A DNA stretch of 39,403 bases from a virus, in IMG/VR virus record IMGVR_UViG_3300009320_001008, positions 1 to 39,403 of that record; one strand, given 5' to 3'. The first letter of the stretch is position 1; each line of letters opens with the position of its first letter. The notes beneath the pieces are model-generated. The model saw nothing but the letters and a program-made list of their open reading frames with translations. It had not been told where the DNA came from and did not search any database. Both the position numbers and the translations under genes were made by a program. This document shows, in pieces, positions 4,134-22,539 of the stretch.

Positions 4134-5132
4134 ATGAGCTACAAAGCACTTGATGCCGGAACAGGTAATTTCGTTGTTGTAGACGAAGATGGCATTAGAC
4201 TTCAAAGAAATGCTTTTTTAACAATAGATAAAGAAGTTACTACTACAAAAAATTTAAAGAAAATGAATGTACCGTTTGTTGAGATCGATGGTAAAATATA
4301 TATAGTTGGTCTAAAAGCATACGAATATTCGCAAGTTTTTGGTACGCAAGATCTTCGCAGGCCTATGCAAAGTGGGGTTCTGAATCCCACAGAACAAGCA
4401 GCATTACCGATATTAAGATTAATAGTCGGCGGGTTACTAAAGAAACCAGAGAAACGAGAAGATGGTACTAAAGAAAAAGTTGTATATTGTGTACCAGCTC
4501 GTCCAATAGATATAGAACGCGAAATAGATTACCACGAAGATGTTTTAGGACAAATTATTAATAGCTTTGATTATGAAAGTCGTTCTATTAATGAAGCAGT
4601 TGCTCTTGGACTCGCAGGGTTAGAGAACGATGATTTAACTGGGATAAGTATAAGTTTGGGAGCCGGTTTAGTTAATATAGCAATAATGTATAAAGGGATG
4701 AGTCCATTACAATTCAGTATCTCCAAGTCCGGAGATTGGATTGATAAAAATGTTAGTAGAGATTGTGGAATTCCAATTGCTAAAGCTCAATTCATAAAAG
4801 AAAGCGGGGATTACACTATCGACCCAGAATCAACTGTCGAACGCACTCGGGAACAAAACGCGATAAAGAGTTATTACGAATCATTAATTAGATACATCCT
4901 TGTTAACATAGCAACTCAATTTGAAAGTAGTGAAATGCCTAACTTTCCAAAGGCAGTCCCAATTGTTTTGGGAGGAGGAACTGCAATGGTAAAGGGATTT
5001 TTAGAATTGTTCAAATCTCAATTTACTCAAAAAGGGTTTCCGTTAAATATAAGCGAAATAAGATTGGTTAACGAACCTCTTACAGCTGTGGCCAGAGGAT
5101 GTTATATTGAAGCTAAACTTGAAGATGAATAG
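4134..5132 (+). CDS. Actin-like ATPase (ParM/Alp type)
   Basis: Actin-fold ATPase of the type that forms filaments for DNA or virion positioning. Phosphate-1 loop near residues 7-12 (DAGTGN), phosphate-2 loop near 171-181 (ISISLGAGLV) and adenosine motif near 277-288 (IVLGGGTAMVKG) are in the normal order and spacing. NEAVALGLAG at 153-162 is the usual segment before phosphate-2. The 332-residue length is typical of ParM and MreB relatives. An AAGGG ribosome site lies 8 bases before the ATG. The next gene starts 3 bases after its stop. A segregation or virion-placement role is inferred; no partner adaptor (ParR-like) is recognised. Confidence 0.75.
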   Translation: MSYKALDAGTGNFVVVDEDGIRLQRNAFLTIDKEVTTTKNLKKMNVPFVEIDGKIYIVGLKAYEYSQVFGTQDLRRPMQSGVLNPTEQAALPILRLIVGGLLKKPEKREDGTKEKVVYCVPARPIDIEREIDYHEDVLGQIINSFDYESRSINEAVALGLAGLENDDLTGISISLGAGLVNIAIMYKGMSPLQFSISKSGDWIDKNVSRDCGIPIAKAQFIKESGDYTIDPESTVERTREQNAIKSYYESLIRYILVNIATQFESSEMPNFPKAVPIVLGGGTAMVKGFLELFKSQFTQKGFPLNISEIRLVNEPLTAVARGCYIEAKLEDE

Positions 5133-5627: not shown

Positions 5628-7502
5628 ATGCCAGTTTCTCCAATTACAGAATCTAACCTTACTCAAACTGAAAGTAGTAAGTTAGCTTATCCAGATCCAT
5701 TTTTTGATTTAGCAAAGAATTATATTCCTAAGAATATAAAAACATTATTTAAATTTTGTAGAACTTTCTTTTATACTTCTGGATTTCTTAGAAACGTAGT
5801 AACTAAACTGACAGAGTACCCAATAACAGATATTTTATATGCTTCCACTACGGATCAAGCTACAAAAGAAAAATATGATACAGCTTTACATCGTAAACTT
5901 AAAATAAAAAGCTTCCTAATAGAAATCGGGTTAGATTTCTTTACTTACGGCAATTGTTTCATATCAACATATATAAAACCAACTAGATTTTTAAAATGTC
6001 CTAGTTGTAAAGAGTCATCATCGATTAAAGAAGTAAGTTACAAACTTGATAATCGCTATAAATTTAAAGGAACATGTCCAAAATGTAATTTAAATGGAGT
6101 ATTGTTTACAGTTGATGACACCTTCACTAAAAGTATCGATAACTTTAAACTACTTAGATGGGCACCAGAAAGTATTGATATAGAATACAATCCATTATCT
6201 GGCACAAGCACATATCATTATAAAATCCCGGCTAAGATAAAAAGTTCGATAATAAAAGGCAATAAAACTATAATAAACGAGATACCTATGGTATTTCTAG
6301 AAGCACTGGCTCAAAAGAAGAGTATTACCCTTGATACCAATAATCTTTTTCACTTTAAACGTCCAACTCTTGCTGAGGATGACCAAGGATGGGGTAAACC
6401 GGTAATACTACCCGCGTTAAAAGATATATACTATTTACAAACATTGAAACGTGGTAATGAAGCAATAGCTAATGAACACGTCGTGCCTAAAAAATCTATT
6501 TTTCCGGCAAATACAACCACATTAGATCCATTTACTCAAATGAATCTTGGTAAATGGAAAGGACAAATAGAGGATCAAATAAAAAAATGGAAATATGATC
6601 CTAATCATATAGGAGTTTTCCCAATTCCTATTGGATACCAAGAACTTGGTGGCAACGCACGAGCATTGCTACTTACAGCTGAAATGAAATTTTTAGAAGA
6701 GACGATTATTAATTCTCTAGGAGTACCTGTTGAATTTGTTAAAGGTGGCACTACATGGACAGGGGGAAGTATTTCACTAAGAATTGTTGAAAATCATTTC
6801 TTAACTTATAGAGAGCTTTTAGAAGATTTCTTGAATTATTTCCTTATATATAAATTAACTACAGTATTAAAGTATCCGGAAACTCGTTTGAAATTTAAAA
6901 AGTTCAAAATGAGTGACGATATTCAACATAAAAATCTTGTCGTCAATTTAAACAATGCTGGTAAAATTTCGGATACAAAACTTTTAGATGAATTTGGATT
7001 TGACGCAGAAGCTGAAACAGCTGCATTAAAAGCAAGCAGAGCAAATCAGGTTGAAGATATGGCATCTCAGGCAGAGGCCGATGCGGAAGCTAGAGGCAGA
7101 GCCACTGTGACAATGGCCAAATACCAGGTACGTGCGCAAGCGATAGCGGCATCAGAACAATTATTAGTAGAAACAGAGCTGTTTCAAGAAGAATTAGCCA
7201 AAGAAAATGTCGGAATACCGTATTCACCTGCAGTAGTTATTGAAAAGTATGCAACTGAAATAATGGCTTTACCACCTGGAGGTCAAAATAAATACTTAGC
7301 TTCTATGTCTAAAAGTATGCCAACAACATACATGTTAGTTGTTAAAAGACTACAAAGTATGCAATTGGAACAAGCTCAACAACAAGTGTTATTACAGCAA
7401 ATGTACGGTCCTGCAGAAAGCGTAAAGAAAAAGCAAGTAGAACAAGTGTCTGGTGAAGAAAAACCAGAAAAAAAGAAAGGACAAACCACTGGAGAAGCGT
7501 AA
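5628..7502 (+). CDS. Portal protein with a zinc-ribbon insertion
   Basis: Portal subunits form the dodecameric ring through which DNA enters the head. The core is recognisable: the FKRPTLAEDDQGWGKPV region (~355-370), the KRGNEAIANEHVVPKKS segment, and the helix-rich stem with SLGVPVEFVKGGTTWTGGS (~367-385) followed by a conserved REL-type helix. The C-terminal ~170 residues are Gln/Glu/Ala-rich helix, as in many portals. Odd feature: residues 124-153 carry two CxxC pairs (C124/C127, C150/C153), a zinc ribbon inserted in the N-terminal wing. The length of 624 residues is in the usual range. The stop overlaps the next ATG (TAATG), indicating translational coupling. Confidence 0.75.
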   Translation: MPVSPITESNLTQTESSKLAYPDPFFDLAKNYIPKNIKTLFKFCRTFFYTSGFLRNVVTKLTEYPITDILYASTTDQATKEKYDTALHRKLKIKSFLIEIGLDFFTYGNCFISTYIKPTRFLKCPSCKESSSIKEVSYKLDNRYKFKGTCPKCNLNGVLFTVDDTFTKSIDNFKLLRWAPESIDIEYNPLSGTSTYHYKIPAKIKSSIIKGNKTIINEIPMVFLEALAQKKSITLDTNNLFHFKRPTLAEDDQGWGKPVILPALKDIYYLQTLKRGNEAIANEHVVPKKSIFPANTTTLDPFTQMNLGKWKGQIEDQIKKWKYDPNHIGVFPIPIGYQELGGNARALLLTAEMKFLEETIINSLGVPVEFVKGGTTWTGGSISLRIVENHFLTYRELLEDFLNYFLIYKLTTVLKYPETRLKFKKFKMSDDIQHKNLVVNLNNAGKISDTKLLDEFGFDAEAETAALKASRANQVEDMASQAEADAEARGRATVTMAKYQVRAQAIAASEQLLVETELFQEELAKENVGIPYSPAVVIEKYATEIMALPPGGQNKYLASMSKSMPTTYMLVVKRLQSMQLEQAQQQVLLQQMYGPAESVKKKQVEQVSGEEKPEKKKGQTTGEA

Positions 7503-7663
7503 TGGAAAAATATGGAACATATAATATATTTCAAAACACAGTCACTAACGAAATAAAAAGAATACCAATTGGCTCCAATGAAGAGGAGTTAGTTAAACTA
7601 GCTAATGATTCTGATTGGAAACAACTGGAAAAAGATCCGGAAGGCAATCTAAATGATAGATAA
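7502..7663 (+). CDS. Small hypothetical protein (53 aa)
   Basis: A short frame beginning MEKYGTYNIFQ and ending GNLNDR starts inside the portal stop (TAATG). It overlaps the start of the next gene by 11 bases. Overlap at both ends argues that it is a real coupled gene. It is charged and soluble, with no recognised motif. Confidence 0.5.
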   Translation: MEKYGTYNIFQNTVTNEIKRIPIGSNEEELVKLANDSDWKQLEKDPEGNLNDR

Positions 7664-7946
7664 TATCGATGGAAAACAATGTGTTGAGGTATTTCGTCTA
7701 ACAGAACTTGACGAAAGAAACTCTTATGAGATTTTATTAAATAATCCTAATATAAAAGTAATTAGGGATAACTTTACTTATGATAAGAAAGGAAATCCGG
7801 TTATTACAGTTTGGTATATAAAAGAGTTTGAAGAGTCAGAGGAAGTTGCAGTATTAGATGACTTAAACGATTTTGGATTCGACATGTTGAAGGAACCTGA
7901 AGAACCTACTGGTCGACTTATTAAAGAAGGCAAAGAAGGCGGGTAG
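7653..7946 (+). CDS. Hypothetical protein (97 aa)
   Basis: Last gene of the first plus-strand block. The protein is acidic, with a short beta-rich half (IKVIRDNFTYDKKGNPVITVWYI) and a charged tail. No family is recognised. It overlaps the preceding 53-residue gene, so it belongs to the portal transcription unit. The inverted repeat at 7967-8001 follows 20 bases after its stop. Confidence 0.55.
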   Translation: MIDNIDGKQCVEVFRLTELDERNSYEILLNNPNIKVIRDNFTYDKKGNPVITVWYIKEFEESEEVAVLDDLNDFGFDMLKEPEEPTGRLIKEGKEGG

Positions 7947-7966
7947 GAAGAAGCTTTTAAATAAAC

Positions 7967-8001
7967 ACCAATACTGCTAATAAAAACTTAGCAGTATTGG
8001 T
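7967..8001. terminator. Inverted repeat between convergent genes, likely bidirectional terminator
   Basis: A perfect 14-bp stem (ACCAATACTGCTAA / TTAGCAGTATTGGT) with a 6-base loop lies between the plus-strand gene ending at 7946 and the minus-strand glycosyltransferase ending at 8012. T-runs are weak on both sides (TCTACCTTTT on plus, TGTTTATTT on minus). The position and stem length support transcription termination. Confidence 0.65.
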
Positions 8002-8011
8002 AATCTACCTT

Positions 8012-10426
8012 TTATAAACTATTTGTTTCTAAGACCTTATCAAAAATTTCATTAAGTACTTCTACTTTATCATCCCATTTAAAGTTTTTTTGTATATTAG
8101 CTAAGCAATCTGCATTTATATCTTTCTCATTCGGAGATTCTTTCCACTTCTGATACTCCTTCTCTAAAGCTTCAGTCATTTTCCATACATCAACAACTGG
8201 GCGTAAGTGTCCGTTATCCAACGCTTGATTCATAACACAAACATTTGGAATCAAGTGCCCTGTTCTTCTAAGCATTTCTGGTATGGCGCTGTTAGCCGGA
8301 GCTATGCTTGGGGTACCAGCAGCAGCTGCTTCTAATAACGATAGTCCACAATTATGAACGGTAGCTTGGGCTGTGGTATATGATTCTCCGTCAGGAACTT
8401 CTAAATCGTATCCTGTTCCGTATGGTTCTATTTTAGATATTGATAATAAATTTAAATACACAAATTCATCAGTAAGCTCGTACTTGTGCATAAGGTGGCC
8501 TTTAGTTTTTAATGGTTTTCGATCTTCATAGTATTTTACAGAATAAATATACCCATCACCGAAACCTTTCGAGTTATCTTCTTTATTAACACTTGCAACT
8601 TTACCCAAAGTTAACCACACGTCTCTTACTAAGTAAGCTAAATATTGTGACACTGTTTTATATCTAGTATAATGCCTCTTATTACTTATATCACCGTCAC
8701 CTGCAATAAGACCATTAAGTAGAGATTCCTTATTAGGAATATCTAATGATAAAAAATACAATGGGAATTTTTTTGTGTGTGCATTAGTTCCAAACATTTC
8801 TTTAAACATTCGCCCTAACATTGGTGCGGAGAGTATTATATATCCGGAGTTATCTTTATCAGACTTCTTGAATTCTGGTTTTTTGTAATTGTTATAAATA
8901 TTGATGTACTTTTGGTATGTATCGATTACAAATTTATGTAAATCTGTTTCATCATTATGAAAAGAAAATCTTATCCCACTTGGACAAGTTGCTCCTTCAG
9001 CAATATATAAACCAAAAAATTTACATATGTCTTTATTAATTGGTATATATCTAGTTATTTTCTTTTTATCGGTTGACTTTTTTGAAATTAAGTATTTATC
9101 TTCTATTTCGTAGTCATAACTAGATACGTAATTACTTAAATCAAGTTTTTCAGGTGTAGGTAAATTATATTTCGGACGTCGCAGAGCTACTATATCTGTT
9201 AAGTTTAATTCATCAGCACGTTTATATGTGCCGTCTTGTAATAAAAGTGGGTGATCCTTTGAACAAATAAGGGGTTCTGTAAATTTACTTAACCTGATAG
9301 AAAACACTGGTTCTGTAAATTTGGTTTCTAGAGTTTTGTTTACGTTAGACCACTTACCTTTGTCGTTAATAACATAATCCCCCTTTGTTACTTCTTCTAT
9401 AGGTTTGTATCCGTTTTTGGTTAAGATCTGTGTTCCTTTCAATAAGGCACCCTCACCTAGACTCGATGATATGTTTACATTAGCTATATTGTAAATATCA
9501 TTTATTACTTTATCTGAAACTGCACCGGCGTAAATATTAGCAGCGTTGACGCCAATTATATTATTTACATCTTCATCTGTAAAGCTAGCATTTAATAGAT
9601 GATTTTGGAGAACGTTTGTTCTGCCAGGCCCCATACTCATCTCAGAAGCCATCATATGTAGGTATAAGAACACATCGTCTCTATCATGTTTTACTACTTT
9701 TTTTATGTCTCTGGGAGAACATGGATTTACATCGCATGATGTTCTATCTAGTGGCATATGATTACCACACTTGCATACCTTATAACCTTTTGCGAACATA
9801 GAGAAAGCTCTAATTGATAATGGAATACATTTTCGTGGCTGAAATCTATTTATATTCACCACTACGAATTTACCTGCCCAACCAAAAGCTTCTTTTTGTT
9901 TTAATATAGTTTTGTATTCGATAGGATGATATACTTTCGGGTCGACTCCATGATAAAGTTTATAAATTTCTTTTTTATAATCCGGAAATCTATCGCGTAT
10001 TACTTTAATGGCCCAATCACTGTAAGTGATAACAGCGTCAGCGACATTTAATACATTTCCCCAGGCTCTGGAAAACGGTTGACCATCTACTGGAAAATAT
10101 ACTACTATTTTATTTTTGGGATGTAACACATTTCTAATTTTATCTATTACATCAGAAATATGAAATATATCTTGAAAAAGGAACACAATGTCTGGTTGTT
10201 CTCTCCTAACGATTGGAATAAGTCTTTTCATCCCAAGCATATCATCTCTACTAACTGGGTACACAAAGTATTTCTCTGTATTATAGTGTTTTTCGCCATG
10301 ATGATTTATAGCTAATACCTGTGTATCATATTTCTGATACATATCTTTTAGAAGATTTTCTGCTACATGACCAAATCCAGTATCTACCAAGAAATCGCAC
10401 CAGGCAAGTAATTTTTTTCTTCTCAT
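8012..10426 (-). CDS. GT4 glycosyltransferase with intein (precursor 804 aa)
   Basis: The two outer parts, residues 1-326 and 693-804, join to a ~438-residue GT-B retaining glycosyltransferase that would transfer a sugar from a nucleotide donor. N-terminal motifs include VDTGFGHVAENL. Residues ~189-197 (VVVNINRFQPRK) are the usual GT4 linker strand. Splicing restores the donor-binding EX7E motif as E325-G-C693-G-L-S-L-L-E699. An unusual Cys cluster (C218, C220, C231, C236) inside the catalytic region looks like a zinc knuckle. The gene is separated from the main glycan cluster by about 18 kb. A well-formed promoter lies 39 bases upstream of the ATG. Confidence 0.85.
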   Translation of the reverse strand: MRRKKLLAWCDFLVDTGFGHVAENLLKDMYQKYDTQVLAINHHGEKHYNTEKYFVYPVSRDDMLGMKRLIPIVRREQPDIVFLFQDIFHISDVIDKIRNVLHPKNKIVVYFPVDGQPFSRAWGNVLNVADAVITYSDWAIKVIRDRFPDYKKEIYKLYHGVDPKVYHPIEYKTILKQKEAFGWAGKFVVVNINRFQPRKCIPLSIRAFSMFAKGYKVCKCGNHMPLDRTSCDVNPCSPRDIKKVVKHDRDDVFLYLHMMASEMSMGPGRTNVLQNHLLNASFTDEDVNNIIGVNAANIYAGAVSDKVINDIYNIANVNISSSLGEGALLKGTQILTKNGYKPIEEVTKGDYVINDKGKWSNVNKTLETKFTEPVFSIRLSKFTEPLICSKDHPLLLQDGTYKRADELNLTDIVALRRPKYNLPTPEKLDLSNYVSSYDYEIEDKYLISKKSTDKKKITRYIPINKDICKFFGLYIAEGATCPSGIRFSFHNDETDLHKFVIDTYQKYINIYNNYKKPEFKKSDKDNSGYIILSAPMLGRMFKEMFGTNAHTKKFPLYFLSLDIPNKESLLNGLIAGDGDISNKRHYTRYKTVSQYLAYLVRDVWLTLGKVASVNKEDNSKGFGDGYIYSVKYYEDRKPLKTKGHLMHKYELTDEFVYLNLLSISKIEPYGTGYDLEVPDGESYTTAQATVHNCGLSLLEAAAAGTPSIAPANSAIPEMLRRTGHLIPNVCVMNQALDNGHLRPVVDVWKMTEALEKEYQKWKESPNEKDINADCLANIQKNFKWDDKVEVLNEIFDKVLETNSL
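8351..9448 (-). mobile_element. Intein in the glycosyltransferase, Ala1 class with LAGLIDADG endonuclease
   Basis: Residues 327-692 (366 aa) form a complete intein. Block A is ALLKGTQILT (Ala at position 1). Block B contains SKDHP (H392). The endonuclease motifs are FGLYIAEG (~471-478) and LNGLIAGDGD (~570-579). Block F is GYDLEVPDGESY, and the end is TVHN (H691-N692) followed by Cys+1. Ala1 with Cys+1 is the pattern of class 2 (KlbA-type) inteins, in which the +1 Cys attacks the N-terminal junction directly. The block F Cys that marks class 3 is absent. The insertion is inside the EX7E catalytic motif. Confidence 0.88.
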
Positions 10427-10518: not shown

Positions 10519-10549
10519 AAAAAAATGGGGTGGCTTAAGTATCCACCCC
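10519..10549 (-). terminator. Intrinsic terminator of the GC-rich element
   Basis: On the minus strand a GGGGTGG / CCACCCC stem (7 bp, 9-base loop) is followed by A and seven Ts. This is a textbook rho-independent terminator, and it fixes the direction of transcription of the element as minus. Confidence 0.8.
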
Positions 10550-11202
10550 TAGTTCCCACCTACCTACCCTACCTTCCACGCTCAATTGCTCGAAAGAAGA
10601 TAAAACAGATAGATAAAGTGAGAGAGGCGGAACCTCTCTCGTTAAGTTACAACTTGCACGAAAAATTACGGCAATATTCGGCCGTTTCCTCTTCAGGATC
10701 CTTAGTCCGGAGGACAGCGGTCGGTATGTTCCGGAATTCACCTAGGCGAATTCTTACCGGCGGTCTTCTCCCGGGTCTCCCGGGATATCGGGAGCTGGCG
10801 AATTTATTCTCAGGAGAGGATGCATGCGGCGAGGAGCGGGAGGCCACTCGCGTTACCGGACCATGGGCCGCCTTTTTACCGGCGCCACCAGTTTAGTCAT
10901 CGATCGTTTAGCGGCGGATGATGCTGGAGACCTGGATGACCGGCCGGTCTAGCTGCAGCTGCTAGAGCTGCTGAGGTGACCGGCGGTGGGCGGTTGTTTC
11001 GAACGGGACCCGCGGTTTATCTGTGGTCGTTACTGGGGTCTGGAGTTAAGGCCTGGAGGGACTGGCGTCATGAGCTCGAGGGATACCCGGGCGCTGCCGA
11101 CGTTAACCCTTAGGACGGCGAGGCCGTAGGAAGGGAGTGTTGTTCTCCCCGGCCGATCCGTCCGATGGTTAACGATTAACCTACAGAAACGAATCGCTTC
11201 TG
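10519..11202 (-). ncRNA. Large GC-rich structured, palindrome-rich element (candidate ornate noncoding RNA)
   Basis: About 0.68 kb of clearly GC-rich DNA in an AT-rich genome, with no credible coding frame. On the minus strand it begins with hairpins at 11202-11184 (CAGAAGCG-ATT-CGTTTCTG) and 11181-11167 (GGTTAA-TCG-TTAACC) and ends in the terminator at 10519-10549. Other strong stems are 10640-10620 (8 bp, 5-base loop), 10794-10777 and 10753-10734. The last has a GAATTC/GAATTC stem whose 8-base loop contains CCTAGG. A 12-base perfect palindrome spans 10938-10949. Six-base palindromes are about three times commoner than chance. Size, terminator and stems suggest an ornate RNA comparable in scale to GOLLD or ROOL, but I cannot match it to either. 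The first hairpin resembles that of the retron RNA. Confidence 0.7.
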
Positions 11203-11253: not shown

Positions 11254-11270
11254 TTACTTTACCTATCTAA

Positions 11271-11945
11271 TTATTTCCAACATTTGTTACAATAACTACA
11301 ACTCTGCTGTAGTTTCATTTTTCCTGAATCACATGGACAAGCTTCTGCTATTTTTTCAGCTTTTGCTTGCTCAACATGTTTCTTGCTTATATTAAAAAAA
11401 GCATTGAATTTGAAGCCACTTAACTTGGTGAACTCATCAGGCATGCCTGTGAAACAAGTTTTGACTTTATTATTTACTAAGTAATTATTATTGTAGTTTT
11501 TTAAATTAGTATTATCAAAACTTAAAAGGACCGATGTTAAGTTGTTTATATCTGCTACTTCTTTTATATATTCAATGCCTAAGTATGTTAAACTCTTGCT
11601 AATTACAAAAAATTTAAAATCTAATTTTTTTAAAAAAGTGTAGTGCTCAGGAATAAAATCCCCGCTCCCATAAACTCTAACTGGGAGCTTCTTTAGTCGT
11701 TTTAAAGCTTGACTCTTGCTAGTTTTCAGTTTCCGGTATTCATCGTTTAATTGGTTTGCGAAAGCTTTTCCATTTCTAGTTGCCATTACACTGTTTCGTT
11801 CTGTCTTGTTTCCGTACGCTGGATAGATTCTCAGCATATTTTCGACGTAACAATACTCGCATAGTGGGTGATAACGTTTACACGTTTCATCTCTACTAAA
11901 ATCTATAGATAGTATTGTTTTTTGATTTCGTGTAAAGACTGTCAA
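11271..11945 (-). CDS. GP88-like cysteine-rich phage protein (224 aa)
   Basis: The N-terminus has C22-x6-C29-x2-C32 followed by Tyr (LCEYCYVEN). The middle has VRVYGSGDFIPEHY (~89-102). The C-terminus has ACPCDSGKMKLQQ followed by C216, C219 and C222. This arrangement, with a GDF segment and a terminal Cys set, matches the phage 'gene product 88' family, which looks like a relative of radical SAM enzymes with iron-sulphur sites. No reaction is known to me for the family. It is the last protein gene of the retron module and lies ~70 bases before the GC-rich element. Whether it works with the retron is unknown. Confidence 0.55.
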   Translation of the reverse strand: MTVFTRNQKTILSIDFSRDETCKRYHPLCEYCYVENMLRIYPAYGNKTERNSVMATRNGKAFANQLNDEYRKLKTSKSQALKRLKKLPVRVYGSGDFIPEHYTFLKKLDFKFFVISKSLTYLGIEYIKEVADINNLTSVLLSFDNTNLKNYNNNYLVNNKVKTCFTGMPDEFTKLSGFKFNAFFNISKKHVEQAKAEKIAEACPCDSGKMKLQQSCSYCNKCWK

Positions 11946-11958
11946 AACAATTTAACGG

Positions 11959-12150
11959 TTAATTATCGTACTTTTTTCCAACCCCGGTCATATACTCTTT
12001 TCTACTTATTGGAGTAATATTTTTCATAGTGGAATTCTTCACTTTTTTTGATATATCTAAAGCTCCTAAAATCGTCGGGTCTGTAACAAAAAGTTTTCTT
12101 TCACTGCTTCTTTTCTTACCAGTTTCTAACAAGATTTTGTAATAAGGCAT
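11959..12150 (-). CDS. Small hypothetical protein (63 aa)
   Basis: Basic, soluble protein (MPYYKILLETGKK...KEYMTGVGKKYDN) with no recognised family. A GAGG site lies upstream, inside the end of the 44-residue membrane gene, from which it is separated by three bases. It belongs to the retron RT transcription unit and could be a retron accessory gene, but nothing in its sequence says so. Confidence 0.5.
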   Translation of the reverse strand: MPYYKILLETGKKRSSERKLFVTDPTILGALDISKKVKNSTMKNITPISRKEYMTGVGKKYDN

Positions 12151-12153
12151 TTA

Positions 12154-12288
12154 TTATTCCTCGTTGTCGCTAGGTTGTCTGTTTTCCTTTTTATATTCTT
12201 TTATCTTACTACTTGCCCAGAAGCTTATTATTTCTCCTGTAACAAATATAGCAACATATATAATATATTGACCTAGCTTTTTATCCAT
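12154..12288 (-). CDS. Single-helix membrane miniprotein (44 aa), coupled to the retron RT
   Basis: The frame starts MDKKLGQYIIYVAIFVTG and ends PSDNEE. Residues ~5-26 form one hydrophobic helix, and the tail is strongly charged (KIKEYKKENR). The ATG starts one base after the RT stop codon, so translation is likely coupled. Small membrane proteins are among the known kinds of retron effector, so this is a candidate toxin or effector. It could equally be a holin-like or unrelated phage miniprotein. Confidence 0.55.
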   Translation of the reverse strand: MDKKLGQYIIYVAIFVTGEIISFWASSKIKEYKKENRQPSDNEE

Positions 12289-12289
12289 T

Positions 12290-13510
12290 TTAATCTTTAC
12301 TCACATTATTGGTTAATATGGTGGTTAATTCATTTTTAAATCTGTTTCCTCTTTCCATATGAAGTGAGTATATCCACTCTGCAAACCCACGTAGTTTTTG
12401 ATAATCATCTATTGTTATTATTTCATCATTAGCAATAATATTGTGTAATTTTGCTCTAAAATTTCTCCATTCCCATTTAGGGATTGAAAGTTTTTCATTT
12501 ATAACAATGCCTGTCACCATCATACGCCTGTGTGGACGCATTATTTTTGTTTTCTTGTTCTTTATTTTTAGTTTGTATTTTTCTACTATTGATGTCACCT
12601 CATCTATAATTACCCCGATATCAAAATTTTTTAAGGGGTGACTAAATGATATATCATCCGCATCATTTTGTGTTAGCTACATATTTCTATATAGATCAGA
12701 CTATATCTTCATCCTCATTTGAGGAGCTGGACGCTCTTGATGGTTATTAAGAAGACTACACTTCTCCATTAGTCGTTGCACGTTCTTTTAGTGTACTAAA
12801 AGCTTCGCTCAGGGTTACCGTACTATTTTATAGGTTAGGCTTTCTCTGAATTCATCCAGTTGCTACTACACGTTACCGTGTAGCGAGACTGCTTTTTTAA
12901 ATTTATCATGTTTTCTTTTTAAACATTTGCATAGCTTGTCAAGATAAATTTAATTTTTTTTCAATCTAGTGTAGATGATATTATTTTTTGTAGCTAATAC
13001 ATGTAATTCTTCATCTAAAGGAATACAATATAAATTAGCTATTGCTGGGCTCGTTGGGGCGCCTTGAGGCAATCGATTTTTATAAGTTACCAAGTCGGTA
13101 AATATTTTAAACGAATTCCTTGCATCACCAAGAGTATACTCTGGACGTAATCTGATTAATTTTGCACTTAAACTAGCCATTAGTGTTATAACCATGTCGT
13201 AGCTTATACTCCCAAAGAAGTCTTGGAAGTCCATATTTAATAAAACTTTTGAGCCTAAATGCCTGTGTGCATTTTCACGAACATTGAGTCTTTTTACAAA
13301 CCCAGTAGCTGATTCATGAAGTCTGAATCTATATAACATCTTAAGTAAAATGCTACGCTGGATTGTTTTTAATGGATCCAACGGTGCGTCTATCCATCTA
13401 CTTTTGTGGTCTGACTTCTTTTTTGGATAAGAGTTATAGTAATTCCTTTTATTAGATATTATCTCATTTATTGTCGATGCATCAGTATCTAAAAATCTGT
13501 AAATTGTCAT
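12290..13510 (-). CDS. Retron reverse transcriptase, split by a group I intron (306 aa after splicing)
   Basis: Exon 1 is 13510-12964 and exon 2 is 12663-12290; joined they give 306 residues, a normal retron RT length. Retron hallmarks: the NAxxH motif at 80-84 (ENAHRHLG), catalytic Asp94 in NMDFQDFFGSI, LPQGAPTSPAIANL at 147-160, Y183-A-D-D186 at the joint, and VTG at 232-234 (MMVTGIVINEKL). Exon 1 ends ...IIYTR plus one T; exon 2 begins AT GCG GAT GAT, so splicing creates the Tyr codon TAT. Without splicing, translation stops four codons past the junction and gives an inactive 186-residue product. Retron RTs reverse-transcribe part of the RNA encoded upstream into branched msDNA. The matching RNA lies at 13529-13851. 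The membrane miniprotein gene follows one base after the stop. Confidence 0.9.
12664..12963 (-). ncRNA. Group I intron (300 nt, no ORF) in the retron RT
   Basis: The 3' part contains GAAGATATAGTCTGATC, nearly identical to the P7/P3 core of the T4 td intron (GGAGATATAGTCTGCTC). It is followed by a P9-like hairpin (CTATAT-AGAA-ATATGTAG) and a final G at 12664 after ACACAAAAT. Upstream are a 7-bp hairpin with a GTAA tetraloop (CTACACG-GTAA-CGTGTAG, P2-like), CCTGAGCGAAG, a CTTTTAG/CTAAAAG stem, and GTGCAACGACTAATGG. The 5' exon ends in T, as group I splicing requires. GACTA/TAGTC supply a P7-type pairing. I could not assign the P1 guide pairing with its U-G pair by eye. It has no internal endonuclease; a broken HNH gene lies at 3553. 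Confidence 0.88.
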
Positions 13511-13528: not shown

Positions 13529-13851
13529 GTCACTAAAACCTCAGCTATACTTGAATTTCGAAGAAACATCGTTAGCCTGGGGCGGAGCCGTCGAGAATAG
13601 TTTAGTTATTAAAGCAATTTGCGAGAACGGGGCTTGCACCGTTAAGCAATTTGGTTTTATCACTAAAGTATTCTTGATTGCGATGACCCATCCTTTCCGA
13701 GAAATTCTTACTGTGGGATAGCGAGCTGACGGGATCATGAACTAGATCTTTATTTTAGGTTCAGGTTCGCGGCAGCTGGGTCCCTTATTGAGTTAGCATA
13801 GAGACGAATCGTCTCTGTGATTAATTGTGTCTATAGCTAAGGTTCAGTGAC
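13529..13851 (-). ncRNA. Retron msr-msd noncoding RNA
   Basis: The element lies between the 117-residue gene and the RT, in the standard retron order. Its ends form the a1/a2 inverted repeat: 13851-13832 (GTCACTGAACCTTAGCTATA) pairs with 13549-13529 (TATAGCTGAGG, one bulged T, then TTAGTGAC), 20 pairs in all. CCTTAGC within a1 matches the branch-point context of retron Ec86 (CCCTTAGCG), so the priming G is probably the G of TTAGC (13837). The first msr hairpin is 13816-13800 (AGAGACG-ATT-CGTCTCT). Inside are a GACCCA/TGGGTC pairing and a direct repeat of CAAATTGCTT. At ~323 nt it is longer than most retron RNAs. The a2 end is 18 bases before the RT start codon. Confidence 0.82.
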
Positions 13852-14406: not shown

Positions 14407-17400
14407 ATGGAAAGCAGACGTACAACTCAGCAACAGAATAAAAAGATCCAGGACGCTGTTACAGCTTCGATACAAAATGTATTTCCAATAGTATCAAAGG
14501 GAAGGCGTTTAGAAATATTAAACATAGATGTAAAAGACACACTTTCTGATACAGATTTTCCTAACCAGAAAGAAGTTAAATTGTCTAGAAAAACATGGGA
14601 GAATCCAGTTTACGCTGATGTACAAATAGTAGATGATGCTACAAATAAAGTTATATCTAGATCAAAGAAAGTTAAAATAGCGTCATTACCAAAGCTTACA
14701 AATAGATTTACCATGATTATTAACGGAAACGAGTATCAAACTATAAATCAGATTCGTAGAAAGCCGGGTATATACTCTATTATGGCCCAAAACGGTATGC
14801 TTATTTCTGAAGTTCATATCAAAGGGAAACCTTTTAAAATTCACCTCAAACCTCAAACTCAAAGATTTATATTTAAATTTAAAAATAGAGAATTCCGTCT
14901 ATGGACATTATTAAATACGTTGGGTGTTCCGGATGCCACTATAGAAGATGCTTGGGGAAGATCTCTGTTGGATATAAATAAAAAAGGAGCATTAAATACT
15001 GAAGTGTCAGAAATGACTGCTGTTTATAAACTTATATACGGAAAAGAACCCAGTAATTATAAGAATGTTATAAATGGTATAAAAGACTTCTTTAAAAGCA
15101 CTGAGATTGACCCACAAGTAAGTAAAGTTACACTTGGTGCTGAGTTTTCTAGTGTAACTCCTGAGGCGTTACTAAAAACGTCGAAGAAGTTAATTGGAAT
15201 TCAGAAAGGGGAGATTAAATCAGATAGCAGAGATAGTCTCATATTTAAAAATATCCATTCGGTTGATGACCTTCTTATTGAGCATTTTGATCAAAACAAA
15301 GCTGTTTTAGCTAAAAAGATTCAAAGAAGTTTAGGGATACGAGACAACATTCGTGACATCATTCCGTCTAATACATTTTCTAAACCTATAAAACAGTTTT
15401 TTACAGTTGGTGACTTATCTTCTACTGCTCCTCAAACTAATCCAGTAACCATTGCTACAGATTGGCAAAAAACTTCTCCAATGGGTACTGGTGGTATTAG
15501 AAATGAAAATCAAATAACTTTCGAAACTAGAGATATTCAACCAACTCATTTAGGATTCCTTGACCCAACAGCTACTCCGGAGGGGCCAAGAGTTGGAGTT
15601 ACTGTAGGACTTGCATCAGAAGTAACTAAAAAAGGAAATAATATTCTCACGCCAGTAATTGATAAAAACGGTAAACGTCATAATTTAAATCCAATAGAAT
15701 TTTTTGAAAAAAAGATCGGCTTTCCTGATCAATTTAAAATAGTTGATGGTAAACCTAAGCCAATAACTAAATCTATAAAGGCTATGTATAGGGGTAAAAC
15801 TATACAATTAACAGATAAAGAACTTGATTTCTACATCAGAAGCCCTAGATCTATGTTTAGTTACTCTACTAATCTTGTACCATTTCTTGCAAATACACAA
15901 GGTAACCGTGCCTCAACTGCTGCACGAATGATAACACAAGCTTTATCATTAGATAATCCGGAACCACCTTTAGTCCGGGTTACTAGAACAGCGGGAGATA
16001 TCGGAGCCCCCACATATGAAGGAGAATTAGGAAGCTATCTGAATGAATGGGGGATTGGTTCTGACGGTAAAAAAAGAACCGGAGTGGTAACAAAGATAAG
16101 TGATGACTATATCCATATCAAAGATAGTGAGGGAAAAGTAGATAAATTTGGATTGTATCGTGATTTTCCACTAAACCAAGATGGTTACTTAAATGTAACC
16201 TCTATTAATGTAAAACCGGGCGACCGTGTTAATGATAAAACTGTATTAGTAGATACAAATTATACATCTAATAAAGGATTACTTTCTTTAGGGAAGAACT
16301 TGACAACGGCTTATATGTCATATAAAGGGTTAAACTGGGAAGATGGAACCATTATTTCAAATTCTGCCGCAAAAAAACTTAGTCATACCTCTATTCATAA
16401 AAAGAATATATTCTTTTCTCCGAAAGTAACTACATTTGATTTAAAAAAATTCAGAGCTTGGTACCCAGATGCTTTAACTACTGTCAATGCGGAGAAGCTA
16501 GATGAACGTGGATTGCCAAAAATTGGTAAAACATTTCTCCCTGGAGAAAATGTAGTTGCTTTTTTAATAGAAAAGGAAATGGATTCAAATGATGAAGCAT
16601 TAAGACGTCTTGATAAAACATCTTTTCGTCCCTACAAAAAACACATCACCGAATGGGATGAAGAAGAACCGGGTATCGTAACAGATGTTAGAATTAGTGG
16701 GCGAAACATAGATGTGTATATTAAATCTATCCATCCATTCAAAGAGGGAGATAAACTTTGTGTAGACGAATTAACAGAAATTTTAACTAAAGATGGATGG
16801 AAATTTTTATTAGATATAAATATAAATGATCTGTTTTGTACATTAGATCCTAAAACGCATAATATTGAATACCAAGAAGCGTCACAAATAAATATTTATG
16901 ATCATAATGAGAAATTATACCATATAGAAAATACATTAATTGACCAAATGGTAACTTTTGACCATAGGATGTATATAAAACAAAGACATAGTGATCAATA
17001 TAAATTGATAAAAGCGAAAGATATACAAAATAAAAGAGTTAGGTATTTAAAAAATGGTCATTGGAAAGGAATGACGGGCATTGTTCCTGACGAATTTAAA
17101 AACAAAATGGATGATTTTGAATATGCGGCCTTATTAGGATGGTACTTGTCAGAAGGTAACACAAACAAAGGTAAAAAAGGCTATGTAACTACTATTCACC
17201 AATCAAAAAAAGTAAATTTTAAAAAATATAATGAGATAGCTAACTTAATACAACTTTGTGGGTTTACTCCTATTTACAGGCCAGATCGAATTTTATTTAA
17301 TGGGAAAGCTATTCATTACTACCTAACACAGTTTGGGCATGCTCATGAAAAATATGTTCCAGGTGAAATTAAGAAAGCTTCTTCTGAAATCATAAAAACA

Positions 17401-20400
17401 TTTTTAGATGCATATAGTAAAGGAGATGGTCATAAAACAAAGACAGGGCAGCATGTTATCACTACTAATAGTGTAAGAATGCGAGATGACCTTATGGAGC
17501 TTTGGTTAAAAGCTGGATATAGTGCTACTTATAAATTAAGAGTAAAAAAAGGTGATCTTGTCTGTGGAATAATAGCAAATCATGATATTTGGGATGTAAG
17601 GCAAATAAGAACAAAAAATTCTCCTCAAGTTAATCATGGACATATACATACACAACAAGGCCAAATAGAAGAAATAATATCTTACCAAGGAAAAGTTGGG
17701 TGCCCTACAACTTCTAACGGAGTTATATATATTCGTAGAAATGGAAAAACTTCATGGACGGGTAACTCAAATCGTTATGGCGGAAAAGGCATTGTAACAA
17801 AAATAATACCCAACGATGAAATGCCTCATCGCAAAGATGGGACTCCGATAGAGGTTATATTAAACGCTCATGGTGTCCCCGGCAGAATGAATATAGGCCA
17901 ACTCTTGGAAACAGCAGCAGGTAAAGTAGCTGCCAAAGAAGGGAAGCCATACCATATAGCCAATTTTTCTAATTTTGGGAAAGATGCTAGTAAGGAATTA
18001 TTGGATTACATGAAAAAAAAGGGCATATCCCCTAATGAAACCCTCACTGATGGCAAAAATGGAAAAGAAATAGAAACTCCTATATTCGTTGGTAATCAAA
18101 ATTTTATAAAATTAAGACATGTAATTAATAAAAAATTAGGTGTTCATAACATCGGGCAATACGATATTGATAAAGCTCCCGTTGGTAAAGGTGCCCAATC
18201 AGTAGGTGTTTTAGATACTTATGCTTACTTGGCCCACGGAGCTAACTGCTTTAAAAACAGTACATTAATAGATACTTTGGAAGGGCCTATGACAATTGGA
18301 GCTATATATGAAGCAACCAAGGATATTTATGTAAAAAGTTGGAATGGTGAAAAAATAGTATTTAATAAAGTTATAAATAAATTTAAACGAAAAGCATATT
18401 TAAATGAGTTAACAAATATTAAATACAGAAATTATGTAGAAACAACTACTTTAGGTCATGAATTTTATCAACCTGATATGACCAAAAAAGAAATTGGTGA
18501 TACAAACCTCGCTGTATTAGAAAATAGGGATGGTATTTCCGAAAAACAAAAACAAATCTTTATTGGTTCATTTTTAGGAGATGGTTATGTCCATCCTGGT
18601 GGGCATCTTCAAATTACCCATTGTGAGCAGCAAGAAGAATATTTAAAATACAAAGCTTGTATTTTAGAATCAAAAGTTAGTGACAAAACATTACGTAAAA
18701 ATGGATATAAACCAAATTCATTTTATTATAAAACAATTTATCCTGTAACAGCTTTTGGTAAGTATGTTAGGTACATTGGGTACAATAAGAATAAAAAAGT
18801 TGTAAATAAAGAAATTTTGGATTTGCTAGATATAGAAGGATTAGCTATTTTATATGGAGATGATGGAACATTTTACACTAATTCAAAAAAATCAGCCAAT
18901 ACTGTACGTATATGTACATATGACTTTACTGAGAATGAAAATAAATTAATAGCAAACAAAATTCAAAAACTTACTGGGGCAAAATTTGATGTAAGATCGA
19001 AAGATAATAAATATTGGATGTTAAAATGTTCACGAAAAAAAGATTTAGTAAAGTTCTTTGAAGCTATTGCTTCACACATTCATTATAATATAGATTATAA
19101 ACTTCCAGATGAATTCAAAAATAGATTTGATAAAGATGATAAGAATTCTATAATTAATTCCATAACTCCTGTCGCTGTAAAAAAATTCGATTATCATTTT
19201 CCACCCTCTGCATCTAACTCCAAATTTAAATGGGTTTATAATATAGAAGTAAAAGATACTCATAATTACTTTTTAACTTCAGGGTTTCTTGTTGGTAATT
19301 CCAATCTTAGAGAAATAGCTGAGATAAAAGGAAGACAGAATGAAGAATACTGGCGTAATCTCCAATTTGGTTTACCTTCTATCCCTACTAAAGAAAATTT
19401 TGCATTTGATAAGTTTTTGACTTATTTAAAAGGTATGGGAGTTAACACTCAAAAAAAAGGAAATCGATTGCGAATTTTTCCGTTAACGGATGCCAACACT
19501 ATGATGTTATCGAATGGTGAATTGCCAGACCCGGGAGCTGTTCTAAAAGGCAAAAATCTTATTGGGAGAAAAGGAGGATTATACGATTCAACCATTACCG
19601 GTGGAGAATTAGGCACACAATACTCTCATGTAAACCTCGCTGTAAGGATTCCTAATCCTATGTATGAGAATGCTATACAAAAAGTTCTAGGTTTAACAGA
19701 GAACAAATATGTTGCTATCATCGATGGTAAAGAAGAATTAAATGGTATGACAGGTGTTACAGCTATTACTAATGCACTAAAAGATGTTAAAGTAACACCG
19801 ATGTTACGTAGTATGGAGAAAGAATTAAAAATAGCTCCACCATCAAAAGTTAACAGATTAAATACGACCATAAAGTATCTTAGAACTTTAAAAGATTTAA
19901 AAATGAAGCCTGATCAAGCCTACACAATGAAAAAATTATTGGTAATACCTCCAATATTTAGACCAGTATACCCATTACCAAGCGGTGATTTAATGGTGAG
20001 CGATCTAACCAAACATTACAAGGACGTTGGAGCTATAAATACTAGATATAAAAAAGCTAGAAAAAATCTATCTGAGTCTGATGATGTTCGTGCCAGTTCT
20101 CATCTCTATGCATCTGTAAAAGCTTTGCAAGGTTTCACAGACCCAGTTGTCTACGGAGAAAGTAAATACAAAGGGTTTATGAAAGAAATGGAACACTTAA
20201 AAAAGGGTATCATATTTGGTAAAAATTGGAGCAAGCGTCAAGATATTTCTGCCAGATCTACAATCACAGTGGATCCGTCTCTGGGGGTAGATGAAGTTGG
20301 TATACCTACTGCAATGGCAAACAAGATGTTAAAACCATTTATTATCTCAGAATTAAAAACTTCTGGAATACCTGCTAGTAAAGCCTTAAAAGAATATGAA

Positions 20401-22539
20401 AACCAGACAGTGATGGCAAAAGGAGCACTACAAGAGGTTCTTAGAAAACGGCCAGTTATTTTAAACCGTGCGCCAGCATTACATAAACACAGTGTACAGG
20501 CATTAAATGCACAACTTACAGATGGAAAAAGTATAAAAATGAATCCACTGATTGCGAAAGGATACAATTTTGACTTGGACGGTGATACTATGGCTGTCCA
20601 TGTTCCAATTGGTCCAGCAGCCGTTGAAGAAGCAAGACATATGCTTCCTAGCCAAATCTTGTTTAAGCATGGAGATGGTAAACTTGTTCCTATGTTGTCA
20701 CATGAGTACATCTATGGACTTTACCTATTATCAAAAATAGATAAAAAAACAAGTAAAAGTTTTTCTTCAATAGAGGAGGCTAAGGAATCTGGAATACCGT
20801 GGACACATCAATTTGATCTTAATGGTAAAAAAATGACTATAGGGCAGTATATGATAAACGCAGAACTTCCAGAGGAGTTTCGTGATTATGAACTAGTCCT
20901 TGATGCAAAAACCGCAAGGAGAGTATTAACACGTATAGGTAAAGAAAAGCCTGGATTTTTTAAAGATGTTATTAACTCTTGGAAATCGCTTGGTAACCTG
21001 AAAGCTTACCAACAAGGTAATACTTTGTCTATAACTGATATGGCTATTGATAGGAGTTATAAACACGATCTGTTAAAGAAAAAATTACCAAGTATAGAAA
21101 AAATAAAAGATGAAGACAAAAAGATTGAGGCATATCAAAAATTGGTAGATGAAATTGAAAAAGCTCAAGGAACGCAAATAAAAAAAGAAAAAAATAATTT
21201 GTTAGGTATGATTACTTCAGGTTCATTTGGAAAGGTAGGAAATATTAGACAAGTTTTGTCATTACCGGGTCTTTTAACAGATATCGAAAATAAACCGATA
21301 CCTATGTTATTTGATAAAAGTTACGCAGAGGGGTTAGATACTAGTTCTTATTTTAACCATTTAACGGGTGTTAGGAAAGGAACAGTTGATAGAAGTGTTA
21401 ATACACAACATAGCGGCAATCTAAATAAAGTCTTGTTGTCTGTTAACAGACGTTTGATGATCACTAAAGAAGATTGTGGAACACAAAGGGGGAAAAGTGT
21501 TTCTATAGATGACAGAGATGCTATTGATAGGACATCGTTGATAACTGTTGCTGGTATAGTTAAACGTAATGACGTACTAACTGGAGAAGTAATTCTTAAG
21601 TTAAAAAAAGCCAAAGTTAAAGAAATAAAGGTCAGATCGCCACTTACTTGTGATGCTGTAGAAGGGATATGTTCGTTATGTTACGGGCTTACTCCTGACG
21701 GTAAATTGCCAGATGTTGGAACTAATATAGGAGTTTTAGACAGTTCCGCAGTAACTGAGGCAAGTACGCAGTTAGTTATGAACTCATTTCATTCTGGGGG
21801 CGCTGTTGGTAGCGGAGGAGAAGTAACTCAAGAATTTCCAAGACTAAAACAGTTATTCTTTGTTCCGGAAAAACTCGCCGGTAAAGCTACGCTAAGTAGC
21901 GTAAAAGGAACTGTAAAAACTTTAGAAAAAAACGAAACTGGAGGATACAACGTTCGTATTGAAGGTTATGGTAAAGAAAACGATAAAGATTTTGTTATAG
22001 GACCCGGTAGAACTCCTACTGTTTCCGTTGGTGATAAAGTTGAACCGGGTGATCGCCTTTCCGATGGAGTAATTAAGCCGCAGGAACTTTCTGCTTTTAA
22101 AGACCATCTTAGTGCGCAACGTTATCTTGTTGAAGAGGCTTCTGCTATTTACGGGCCAGGTTTTCATAAGAAAACTTTCGAAACTGCAATACGCGGTGTT
22201 TCAGATAATGCAGAGGTAATAGATGCTCCGAATGACTCAGGATTTATTCGTGGGGACAAAACTTCAATTTCTTCTTTAAAGAGTCTAAATAGGAAAAGAC
22301 GAAAAGAAGGTCTTGGTGAAATCAAATTTATACCGTATTTTAAGAGTATAGATACGTTAAACACTGATGCTGAGGATTTCTTAACAAGATTAACCTCTTC
22401 GAGAGTTAAGGCTGGATTAACTACTGGCGCAGCTAAAGGATTGTATGCCAACATAAAAGGTAAAGATCCGATACCTGCCTACATTTATGGTGAAAACTTC
22501 GGTAAGAACACCGATTACAAAAAGGGGAATTTCTTTTAA
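14407..22539 (+). CDS. Fused beta/beta-prime multisubunit-type RNA polymerase with two inteins (precursor 2710 aa)
   Basis: After removal of both inteins the chain is ~2023 residues, holding RpoB-like then RpoC-like halves. Beta landmarks: NGNEYQTINQIRRKPGIY, RDIQPTHLGFLDPTATPEGP (~374-393), GDKL|SNRYGGKG split by intein 1, and a VILNAHGVPGRMNIGQLLE segment. Beta-prime landmarks: LLVIPPIFRPVYPLPSG, RPVILNRAPALHKHSVQAL, the Mg-binding NFDLDGD at 2054-2060, a C-x6-C-x2-C zinc segment from 2415 (TCDAVEGICSLCYG), and the trigger-loop-area STQLVMNSFHSGG. The junction is near residue ~1690, and the beta-prime N-terminal zinc domain seems missing. This enzyme could transcribe phage genes independently of host polymerase. 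No sigma, alpha or omega gene is seen here. An AAGAGGT site supports the start. Confidence 0.93.
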   Translation: MESRRTTQQQNKKIQDAVTASIQNVFPIVSKGRRLEILNIDVKDTLSDTDFPNQKEVKLSRKTWENPVYADVQIVDDATNKVISRSKKVKIASLPKLTNRFTMIINGNEYQTINQIRRKPGIYSIMAQNGMLISEVHIKGKPFKIHLKPQTQRFIFKFKNREFRLWTLLNTLGVPDATIEDAWGRSLLDINKKGALNTEVSEMTAVYKLIYGKEPSNYKNVINGIKDFFKSTEIDPQVSKVTLGAEFSSVTPEALLKTSKKLIGIQKGEIKSDSRDSLIFKNIHSVDDLLIEHFDQNKAVLAKKIQRSLGIRDNIRDIIPSNTFSKPIKQFFTVGDLSSTAPQTNPVTIATDWQKTSPMGTGGIRNENQITFETRDIQPTHLGFLDPTATPEGPRVGVTVGLASEVTKKGNNILTPVIDKNGKRHNLNPIEFFEKKIGFPDQFKIVDGKPKPITKSIKAMYRGKTIQLTDKELDFYIRSPRSMFSYSTNLVPFLANTQGNRASTAARMITQALSLDNPEPPLVRVTRTAGDIGAPTYEGELGSYLNEWGIGSDGKKRTGVVTKISDDYIHIKDSEGKVDKFGLYRDFPLNQDGYLNVTSINVKPGDRVNDKTVLVDTNYTSNKGLLSLGKNLTTAYMSYKGLNWEDGTIISNSAAKKLSHTSIHKKNIFFSPKVTTFDLKKFRAWYPDALTTVNAEKLDERGLPKIGKTFLPGENVVAFLIEKEMDSNDEALRRLDKTSFRPYKKHITEWDEEEPGIVTDVRISGRNIDVYIKSIHPFKEGDKLCVDELTEILTKDGWKFLLDININDLFCTLDPKTHNIEYQEASQINIYDHNEKLYHIENTLIDQMVTFDHRMYIKQRHSDQYKLIKAKDIQNKRVRYLKNGHWKGMTGIVPDEFKNKMDDFEYAALLGWYLSEGNTNKGKKGYVTTIHQSKKVNFKKYNEIANLIQLCGFTPIYRPDRILFNGKAIHYYLTQFGHAHEKYVPGEIKKASSEIIKTFLDAYSKGDGHKTKTGQHVITTNSVRMRDDLMELWLKAGYSATYKLRVKKGDLVCGIIANHDIWDVRQIRTKNSPQVNHGHIHTQQGQIEEIISYQGKVGCPTTSNGVIYIRRNGKTSWTGNSNRYGGKGIVTKIIPNDEMPHRKDGTPIEVILNAHGVPGRMNIGQLLETAAGKVAAKEGKPYHIANFSNFGKDASKELLDYMKKKGISPNETLTDGKNGKEIETPIFVGNQNFIKLRHVINKKLGVHNIGQYDIDKAPVGKGAQSVGVLDTYAYLAHGANCFKNSTLIDTLEGPMTIGAIYEATKDIYVKSWNGEKIVFNKVINKFKRKAYLNELTNIKYRNYVETTTLGHEFYQPDMTKKEIGDTNLAVLENRDGISEKQKQIFIGSFLGDGYVHPGGHLQITHCEQQEEYLKYKACILESKVSDKTLRKNGYKPNSFYYKTIYPVTAFGKYVRYIGYNKNKKVVNKEILDLLDIEGLAILYGDDGTFYTNSKKSANTVRICTYDFTENENKLIANKIQKLTGAKFDVRSKDNKYWMLKCSRKKDLVKFFEAIASHIHYNIDYKLPDEFKNRFDKDDKNSIINSITPVAVKKFDYHFPPSASNSKFKWVYNIEVKDTHNYFLTSGFLVGNSNLREIAEIKGRQNEEYWRNLQFGLPSIPTKENFAFDKFLTYLKGMGVNTQKKGNRLRIFPLTDANTMMLSNGELPDPGAVLKGKNLIGRKGGLYDSTITGGELGTQYSHVNLAVRIPNPMYENAIQKVLGLTENKYVAIIDGKEELNGMTGVTAITNALKDVKVTPMLRSMEKELKIAPPSKVNRLNTTIKYLRTLKDLKMKPDQAYTMKKLLVIPPIFRPVYPLPSGDLMVSDLTKHYKDVGAINTRYKKARKNLSESDDVRASSHLYASVKALQGFTDPVVYGESKYKGFMKEMEHLKKGIIFGKNWSKRQDISARSTITVDPSLGVDEVGIPTAMANKMLKPFIISELKTSGIPASKALKEYENQTVMAKGALQEVLRKRPVILNRAPALHKHSVQALNAQLTDGKSIKMNPLIAKGYNFDLDGDTMAVHVPIGPAAVEEARHMLPSQILFKHGDGKLVPMLSHEYIYGLYLLSKIDKKTSKSFSSIEEAKESGIPWTHQFDLNGKKMTIGQYMINAELPEEFRDYELVLDAKTARRVLTRIGKEKPGFFKDVINSWKSLGNLKAYQQGNTLSITDMAIDRSYKHDLLKKKLPSIEKIKDEDKKIEAYQKLVDEIEKAQGTQIKKEKNNLLGMITSGSFGKVGNIRQVLSLPGLLTDIENKPIPMLFDKSYAEGLDTSSYFNHLTGVRKGTVDRSVNTQHSGNLNKVLLSVNRRLMITKEDCGTQRGKSVSIDDRDAIDRTSLITVAGIVKRNDVLTGEVILKLKKAKVKEIKVRSPLTCDAVEGICSLCYGLTPDGKLPDVGTNIGVLDSSAVTEASTQLVMNSFHSGGAVGSGGEVTQEFPRLKQLFFVPEKLAGKATLSSVKGTVKTLEKNETGGYNVRIEGYGKENDKDFVIGPGRTPTVSVGDKVEPGDRLSDGVIKPQELSAFKDHLSAQRYLVEEASAIYGPGFHKKTFETAIRGVSDNAEVIDAPNDSGFIRGDKTSISSLKSLNRKRRKEGLGEIKFIPYFKSIDTLNTDAEDFLTRLTSSRVKAGLTTGAAKGLYANIKGKDPIPAYIYGENFGKNTDYKKGNFF
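16759..17766 (+). mobile_element. Intein 1 in the beta part of the RNA polymerase
   Basis: Residues 785-1120 (336 aa). It starts CVDELTEILTKDGWK, has block B TFDH, endonuclease motifs LLGWYLSEG and FLDAYSKGDG (LAGLIDADG type), and ends VIYIRRNGKTSWTGN followed by Ser+1. The penultimate residue is Gly rather than His. The insertion splits the GDK-L/S-NRYGGKG motif, which in bacterial beta holds two active-site lysines. Confidence 0.9.
18247..19299 (+). mobile_element. Intein 2 in the beta C-terminal part of the RNA polymerase
   Basis: Residues 1281-1631 (351 aa). It starts CFKNSTLIDTLEGP, with block B TTLGHEF, LAGLIDADG motifs FIGSFLGDGY and LAILYGDDGT, block F YNIEVKDTHNYFL, and ends GFLVGN followed by Ser+1. 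The penultimate residue is Gly. The insertion is at AYLAHGAN|SNLREI, the counterpart of the bacterial ALQAYGAA-YTLQEM segment near the end of beta. The endonuclease motifs look intact. Confidence 0.9.

Follow-up and report, generated by a model that had tools for sequence, protein, structure and literature searches.

We have examined a 39,403-nucleotide stretch of viral DNA (positions 1 to 39,403 of IMG/VR record IMGVR_UViG_3300009320_001008; hereafter the window) and, within it, a palindrome-rich non-coding element that we call the restriction-site array. The array belongs to a cassette that reads, 5' to 3' on the minus strand, as an upstream structured RNA, a reverse transcriptase (RT) gene with an intron, genes for a 44- and a 63-amino-acid protein, a gp88 gene, the array element and a terminator, and it is located between the gp88-family gene and an intein-bearing glycosyltransferase gene. 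Across its GC-rich, non-coding core (10650..11180) there are 30 exact six-base palindromes, representing 23 kinds, an excess of z about 7 over dinucleotide shuffles. All the features of the cassette described below, and the glycosyltransferase, are on the minus strand.

A sequence-only reading of this DNA had reported about 31 hexamer palindromes of 25 kinds between 10534 and 11173, where about 10 would be expected. Our recount gives 32 palindromes of 25 kinds, while 3000 dinucleotide shuffles, the control that this reading had proposed, gave a mean of 10.7 (sd 3.2) and a maximum of 23, and none of them reached 25 kinds. The tract is the densest of the window, whose mean is 12.8 per 640 bp, and forms an island of GC 0.57-0.65 within a contig of GC 0.34. 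Longer and shorter palindromes follow from the hexamers: 8-mers (6 against 2.8) are at the level predicted by chance extension of hexamers, and the excess of 4-mers is accounted for by them. Three-base half-sites separated by spacers of 1-9 are hardly or not at all in excess in the window, so that what is over-represented is specifically the contiguous palindrome of six bases.

No relatives of the window element were detectable by direct DNA search, nor did it give a meaningful match in phage records, and its relatives were reached through the neighbouring proteins. A comparison with homologous elements had also been suggested, and the density does recur: six further viral contigs carry tracts of the same density adjoining the same genes, with element sequences that are unrelated to each other and mutually unalignable, the conserved feature being the density of exact sites. 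Contigs L002-L006, which represent one virus in five contigs of up to 205 kb, show the order gp88, non-coding stretch (33 palindromes of 28 kinds, found in L004 at the same locus as the window element), terminator and glycosyltransferase, and the 131-kb contig L008 has the same locus layout and palindrome density. Palindrome-dense tracts also adjoin related RTs in L016, L021 and L022, and L086 was added through the gp88 scan. The L021 array sits immediately upstream of the RT gene, the usual place of retron template RNAs. The 205-kb and 131-kb contigs each carry the array once; two other palindrome-dense tracts in these contigs (z 4.6 and 4.9) lie in coding or repeat regions and were judged to be chance. 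When further strains were sought by exact RT pattern, the known contigs alone were recovered, and a volactin query yielded one 4-kb contig without the locus. The L008 copy of gp88 had no match in 50,697 phage records, and in GTDB genomes gp88 gave one weak match, L087, which is without the array.

Some of these loci show features of their own. In L008 (4412-4472), six CCCGGG sites recur every 11 bp, separated by spacers that are unrelated, as if an old tandem repeat had kept its sites only. Contig L071 has, about 2 kb from a distant RT, a non-coding tract (8970-9500) with 18 palindromes against 7.7, possibly a second origin, in which CTCGAG and GGATCC are repeated in hairpin arms, that is, as duplex sites. 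Inside the L020 element, the stretch 8598-8630 resembles the complement of a tRNA T-arm and acceptor region.

Which sites are selected was analysed by pooling seven elements; the same seven served for several tests, so single P-values are to be read accordingly, and the main enrichment does not depend on them. Exact hexamer palindromes number 181 against 50.6 expected (z about 19), while near-palindromic hexamers are at expectation, whether they contain one G-U pair (42 against 48.4), one A-C pair (90 against 85.0) or another mismatch (280 against 296.8). The 8-mer palindromes are enriched in the same ratio as the hexamers, so the hexamers are not under selection to extend, and the 4-mers have no excess beyond the hexamers. 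For eight of the 64 possible six-base palindromes, the REBASE copy in Biopython lists no enzyme, and these enzyme-less hexamers, CGCGCG among them, appear avoided, with 4 uses against the 15.4 expected from their GC class (P 0.003, labels permuted within GC classes; an earlier null gave an even smaller chance, and the stratified permutation is the safer figure). Similarly, odd 7-base palindromes are enriched when they have a known enzyme (20 against 8.9, sd 3.2) and not when they have none (44 against 39.4, sd 6.4), and interrupted palindromes show the same tendency, with 35 against 19.0 for the restriction enzyme types (ratio 1.84) and 344 against 264.5 for the others (ratio 1.30). An excess of asymmetric sites (4526 against 4251) was set aside because of its weak null and was not used. 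In L021 and L022, 24 of the 24 sites are different (P about 3e-4 each), and in the other elements the number of kinds is nearer expectation. Our results show that selection acts on exact 6-bp sites and on 7-bp sites of the restriction enzyme type. The most over-represented site is TTCGAA (9 against 0.5), often followed by AC, which is present in all six elements studied first (window 10998-11003, and the cores of L004, L008, L016, L021 and L022).

About 1 kb from the array lies a gene that the sequence-only reading had overlooked and that changes the meaning of the element, a predicted retron RT. Its first exon (12964..13510) bears NAHRH and PQGAPTSP and matches Pfam RVT_1 (4e-11) and the retron RTs of PADLOC and NCBIfam, and its second exon (12290..12663), with a putative border, bears ADDISFS... 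and VTGIVIN. Between them, interrupting the gene precisely at the YADD active-site codons, sits a group I intron (12664..12963; Rfam RF00028, 93 bits, core 12677-12914) with predicted splice sites. An RT of about 300 amino acids is encoded upstream of gp88 at the window, L002-L006 and L008 loci. The retron motifs NAxxH, VTG and YxDD are present, the first being exact in the window and replaced by EGAKRH in L004 and DGVKRH in L008. Among solved structures the RT matches that of Ec86 (PDB, E 1e-32) and also Ec78, and it matches PADLOC retron types XIII, II-A and X as well as NCBIfam retron RTs, the latter below the curated cut-off. Judged by these motifs, structural relatives and family models, the window RT is a retron RT. 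A diversity-generating retroelement was rejected, as the RT matches retron families; template and variable repeats were not searched for.

A scan with the RT gave 64 viral loci. The palindrome density was found beside the RTs of L016, L021, L022, L008 and the L004 group, and the other scanned retron RT loci had z 3.7 or less. All ten RTs from loci of this type group in a single clade (98/98 support), within which L021 branches outermost in a tree drawn with a midpoint root, and all seven array elements adjoin RTs of this single clade. In L004 and L020 the RT leaves no space immediately upstream for a template RNA, an arrangement suggesting that at these loci the template resides in the downstream element. 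Long imperfect hairpins of about 200 and 110 bases, like retron msd stems, lie upstream of the RT in L086 (3642-4253) and L008 (1104-1603), respectively.

Retron template RNAs are closed by a1/a2 inverted repeats, and such repeats were found in the window for both the array RNA and the upstream RNA. The whole array element is closed by a 14-bp stem, in which the a1-like 5' arm (11256..11269), TAGATAGGTAAAGT, pairs with ACTTTATCTATCTG in the a2-like 3' arm (10606..10619); the stem was obtained in the fold and in an ungapped stem test (p 0.003 against shuffled flanks). A hairpin lies between the array (11180-10650) and the second arm (10619-10606), and the transcript would end at an intrinsic terminator (10520..10549), read directly and folded, with GGGGTGG...CCACCCC followed by T7. 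Directly upstream of the RT, in the canonical position of a retron msr-msd, is the other structured RNA (13536..13845), closed by a 14-bp stem as well (GAACCTTAGCTATA / TATAGCTGAGGTTT; 0 of 300 shuffles as good). Both closing stems of the window are rarer than 1 in 100 shuffles. They were tested as ungapped stems, RNAduplex being uninformative since it allows long gapped duplexes. Rfam, at gathering and relaxed thresholds, gave no match for the array element.

The remaining genes of the cassette are conserved with it. The 44-amino-acid protein (12154..12288) has, by eye, a single transmembrane helix and is a candidate effector, and the 63-amino-acid protein (11959..12150; YKILLETGKKRSSERKLFV...) is basic; the small open reading frames (ORFs) tested had no Pfam, PADLOC or NCBIfam match. 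The gp88-family protein (11271..11945; Pfam PF17338, E 3e-9), a conserved neighbour, is radical-SAM-like, with CxxxCxxC in its relatives by motif alignment; the relatives also have a cysteine-rich C-terminus. In L016 (8996-9070), the gp88 coding region contains a long near-perfect inverted repeat, possibly an assembly artefact. Downstream of the terminator, in conserved synteny, is the glycosyltransferase interrupted by an intein (8012..10426); its L004 relative (7439-9778) has an intein at the same position. The contig also encodes its own large RNA polymerase, a portal protein, a volactin and an amidase, as expected for a large phage; the polymerase is a single ORF of 2710 amino acids (14407-22539) with beta and beta' domains plus LAGLIDADG domains, and the volactin gene (4134-5132) is the actin-like gene of a large phage.

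Phages avoid restriction sites as an answer to restriction (PMC6286503). Here, six-base palindromes are not avoided genome-wide (observed/expected 1.00 in 38 kb, 0.96 in 200 kb and 0.99 in 120 kb), and none of the nine contigs has a C5 or N4/N6 DNA methylase above the family cut-off, with the limit that incomplete contigs may lack the gene, so that the usual answers to restriction, avoidance of sites and conventional methylation, are not evident. Site use in the element had no correlation with genome avoidance in the window or in G001, and a weak one in G002 (rho -0.23, p 0.07).

We tentatively propose, as a reading that falls a little short of even probability, that a retron-like system carried by the phage uses the array as its template and that the resulting DNA copies act as a restriction decoy. 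The neighbouring retron RT would copy the array into many DNA molecules, and, since much of the possible site repertoire is represented in the array, these copies would offer binding or cleavage sites to many different orthodox Type II restriction enzymes, or to the corresponding methylases, and would keep such enzymes off the phage genome, which itself is not site-avoiding. Exact Type II sites are enriched over near-sites and enzyme-less sites, as a restriction-site decoy would have it, and of the three explanations offered by the sequence-only reading, the best fit is the first, a decoy or sponge for restriction enzymes or methylases, because exact sites of the restriction enzyme type are selected and enzyme-less hexamers avoided. 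Reverse transcription of the array, a double-stranded product and the decoy action are steps that we infer.

Several points weigh against this proposal, beginning with the RT-DNA of the array, which is a presumed product. The array is not a long hairpin and most sites occur once, and a single-stranded complementary DNA would need second-strand synthesis, an RNA-DNA hybrid or the pairing of two copies to present duplex sites. The window has another template candidate of ordinary appearance, the RNA upstream of the RT (13536-13845), so that the array may be dispensable to the RT and there may be two template RNAs in the window. The closing stems of the relatives are mixed (L084 p 0.03, L016 p 0.06, the others not significant) and weak in several. 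In three members of the RT clade, L084 (9 against 6.9), L020 (7 against 3.7) and L014 (6 against 2.9), a GC-rich element shows weak or no enrichment, which suggests that the array can be reduced or lost. Finally, 5-bp odd palindromes are enriched with or without a known enzyme, with no discrimination between the two.

The same DNA copies could serve as bait rather than decoy, an explanation that we consider rather unlikely on balance. In bacterial retrons a toxin is triggered when methylases or nucleases act on the multicopy single-stranded DNA (msDNA), which becomes methylated or degraded (PMC12409349). Here, the msDNA would hold an effector, perhaps the tiny membrane protein, inactive until any one of its many sites is cut or methylated, whether by a restriction enzyme or by the methylase of a rival phage. 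The RT family, the sensor logic of known retrons and the conserved tiny transmembrane ORF between RT and gp88 agree with this, and the site statistics serve it as well as the decoy. However, no effector is recognised, taking the tiny ORF for the effector is a guess, and a phage gains little by killing a cell that is already cutting it, the natural use being the exclusion of rival phages. Duplex formation is a problem for decoy and bait alike, because sites that occur once cannot pair within one strand. The present data do not separate the two, and the decoy is the more economical. That the retron makes multicopy DNA with a broad set of Type II sites, as a broad-spectrum decoy or bait against restriction-modification, seems to us evenly balanced.

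Other explanations dispense with the DNA copies. The array might act as RNA, its self-complementary hexamers pairing with their twins in other copies to form a multimer or condensate, as in the kissing-loop surfaces of the sequence-only reading. The element is on one transcribed strand, is U-poor, has a terminator and folds more stably than its shuffles (z -4.4, from 20 shuffles only), and its self-complementary sites would permit homotypic pairing. We nevertheless regard this as improbable, since neither one-mismatch nor G-U versions show enrichment and the palindromes are not concentrated in hairpin loops (18.3% against 16.1% for other hexamers); nor does it predict the avoidance of enzyme-less hexamers, including CGCGCG, or the enzyme-specific 7-mers, and no known large ornate RNA of Rfam matches. 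An equally improbable explanation is that the array functions within the phage genome as a DNA element, such as a site of landing or exchange or a set of binding sites for symmetric DNA-binding proteins, the nearness of the RT being incidental. This would suit statistics that are strand-symmetric and concern duplex DNA, and the single copy in the two long contigs, but the array is tied to one retron RT clade and absent at the other scanned loci, the terminator and closing stem mark the window element as RNA, and a cluster of cut sites in the genome would, by itself, put the phage at a disadvantage. As for a vector, synthetic or chimeric origin, or compositional chance, the likeness to a cloning polylinker is seen in L021, where 24 sites, all different, occupy 271 bp; yet this densest element had no match among 72,556 plasmid records, seven different sequences occur at conserved loci of independent metagenomic contigs, and the dinucleotide controls stand against chance. 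The foreign or synthetic sequence, or misassembly, that the earlier reading had allowed for is thus refuted for practical purposes.

In this group of large phages, natural selection has packed a short non-coding stretch next to a retron-type RT with dozens of different restriction sites, most plausibly as decoy or bait. A DNA copy of the array, if made, would represent either a new form of counter-defence, in which a nucleic acid decoys many enzymes at once, or a retron sensor that responds to many triggers, and phage-borne retrons would gain a function. Known retrons fire on methylation or degradation of their msDNA, and a site array would widen the range of triggers if the bait explanation is true. 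Since enzyme-less hexamers appear avoided, the array also tells which site specificities matter in nature. In the literature searched, which mostly lacked subscription papers and preprints, there was no description of a natural sequence selected for many different Type II sites.

The system resembles retrons in its RT, with NAxxH (in the window), VTG and PQGxPTSP, and in the structured RNA with a closing stem beside it. It differs from them in being phage-borne, in its neighbours (gp88, the tiny membrane protein and the 63-amino-acid basic protein), in having no recognised effector, and in the restriction-site array of 270-550 bp, which is absent from the other retron loci scanned. Ocr is a phage anti-restriction decoy, a protein that mimics DNA; the proposed outcome is similar, with restriction enzymes titrated away from phage DNA, but the decoy here would be a nucleic acid bearing real recognition sites of many enzymes. 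ROOL and GOLLD are large ornate non-coding RNAs of phages and, like the array element, structured RNAs of several hundred bases located between genes; in contrast to them, our element has no Rfam match, its primary sequence is not conserved and its palindromes are outside loops. Restriction-site avoidance (PMC6286503) and the array would both answer Type II restriction, by opposite strategies: instead of being avoided genome-wide, the sites are here concentrated in one array.
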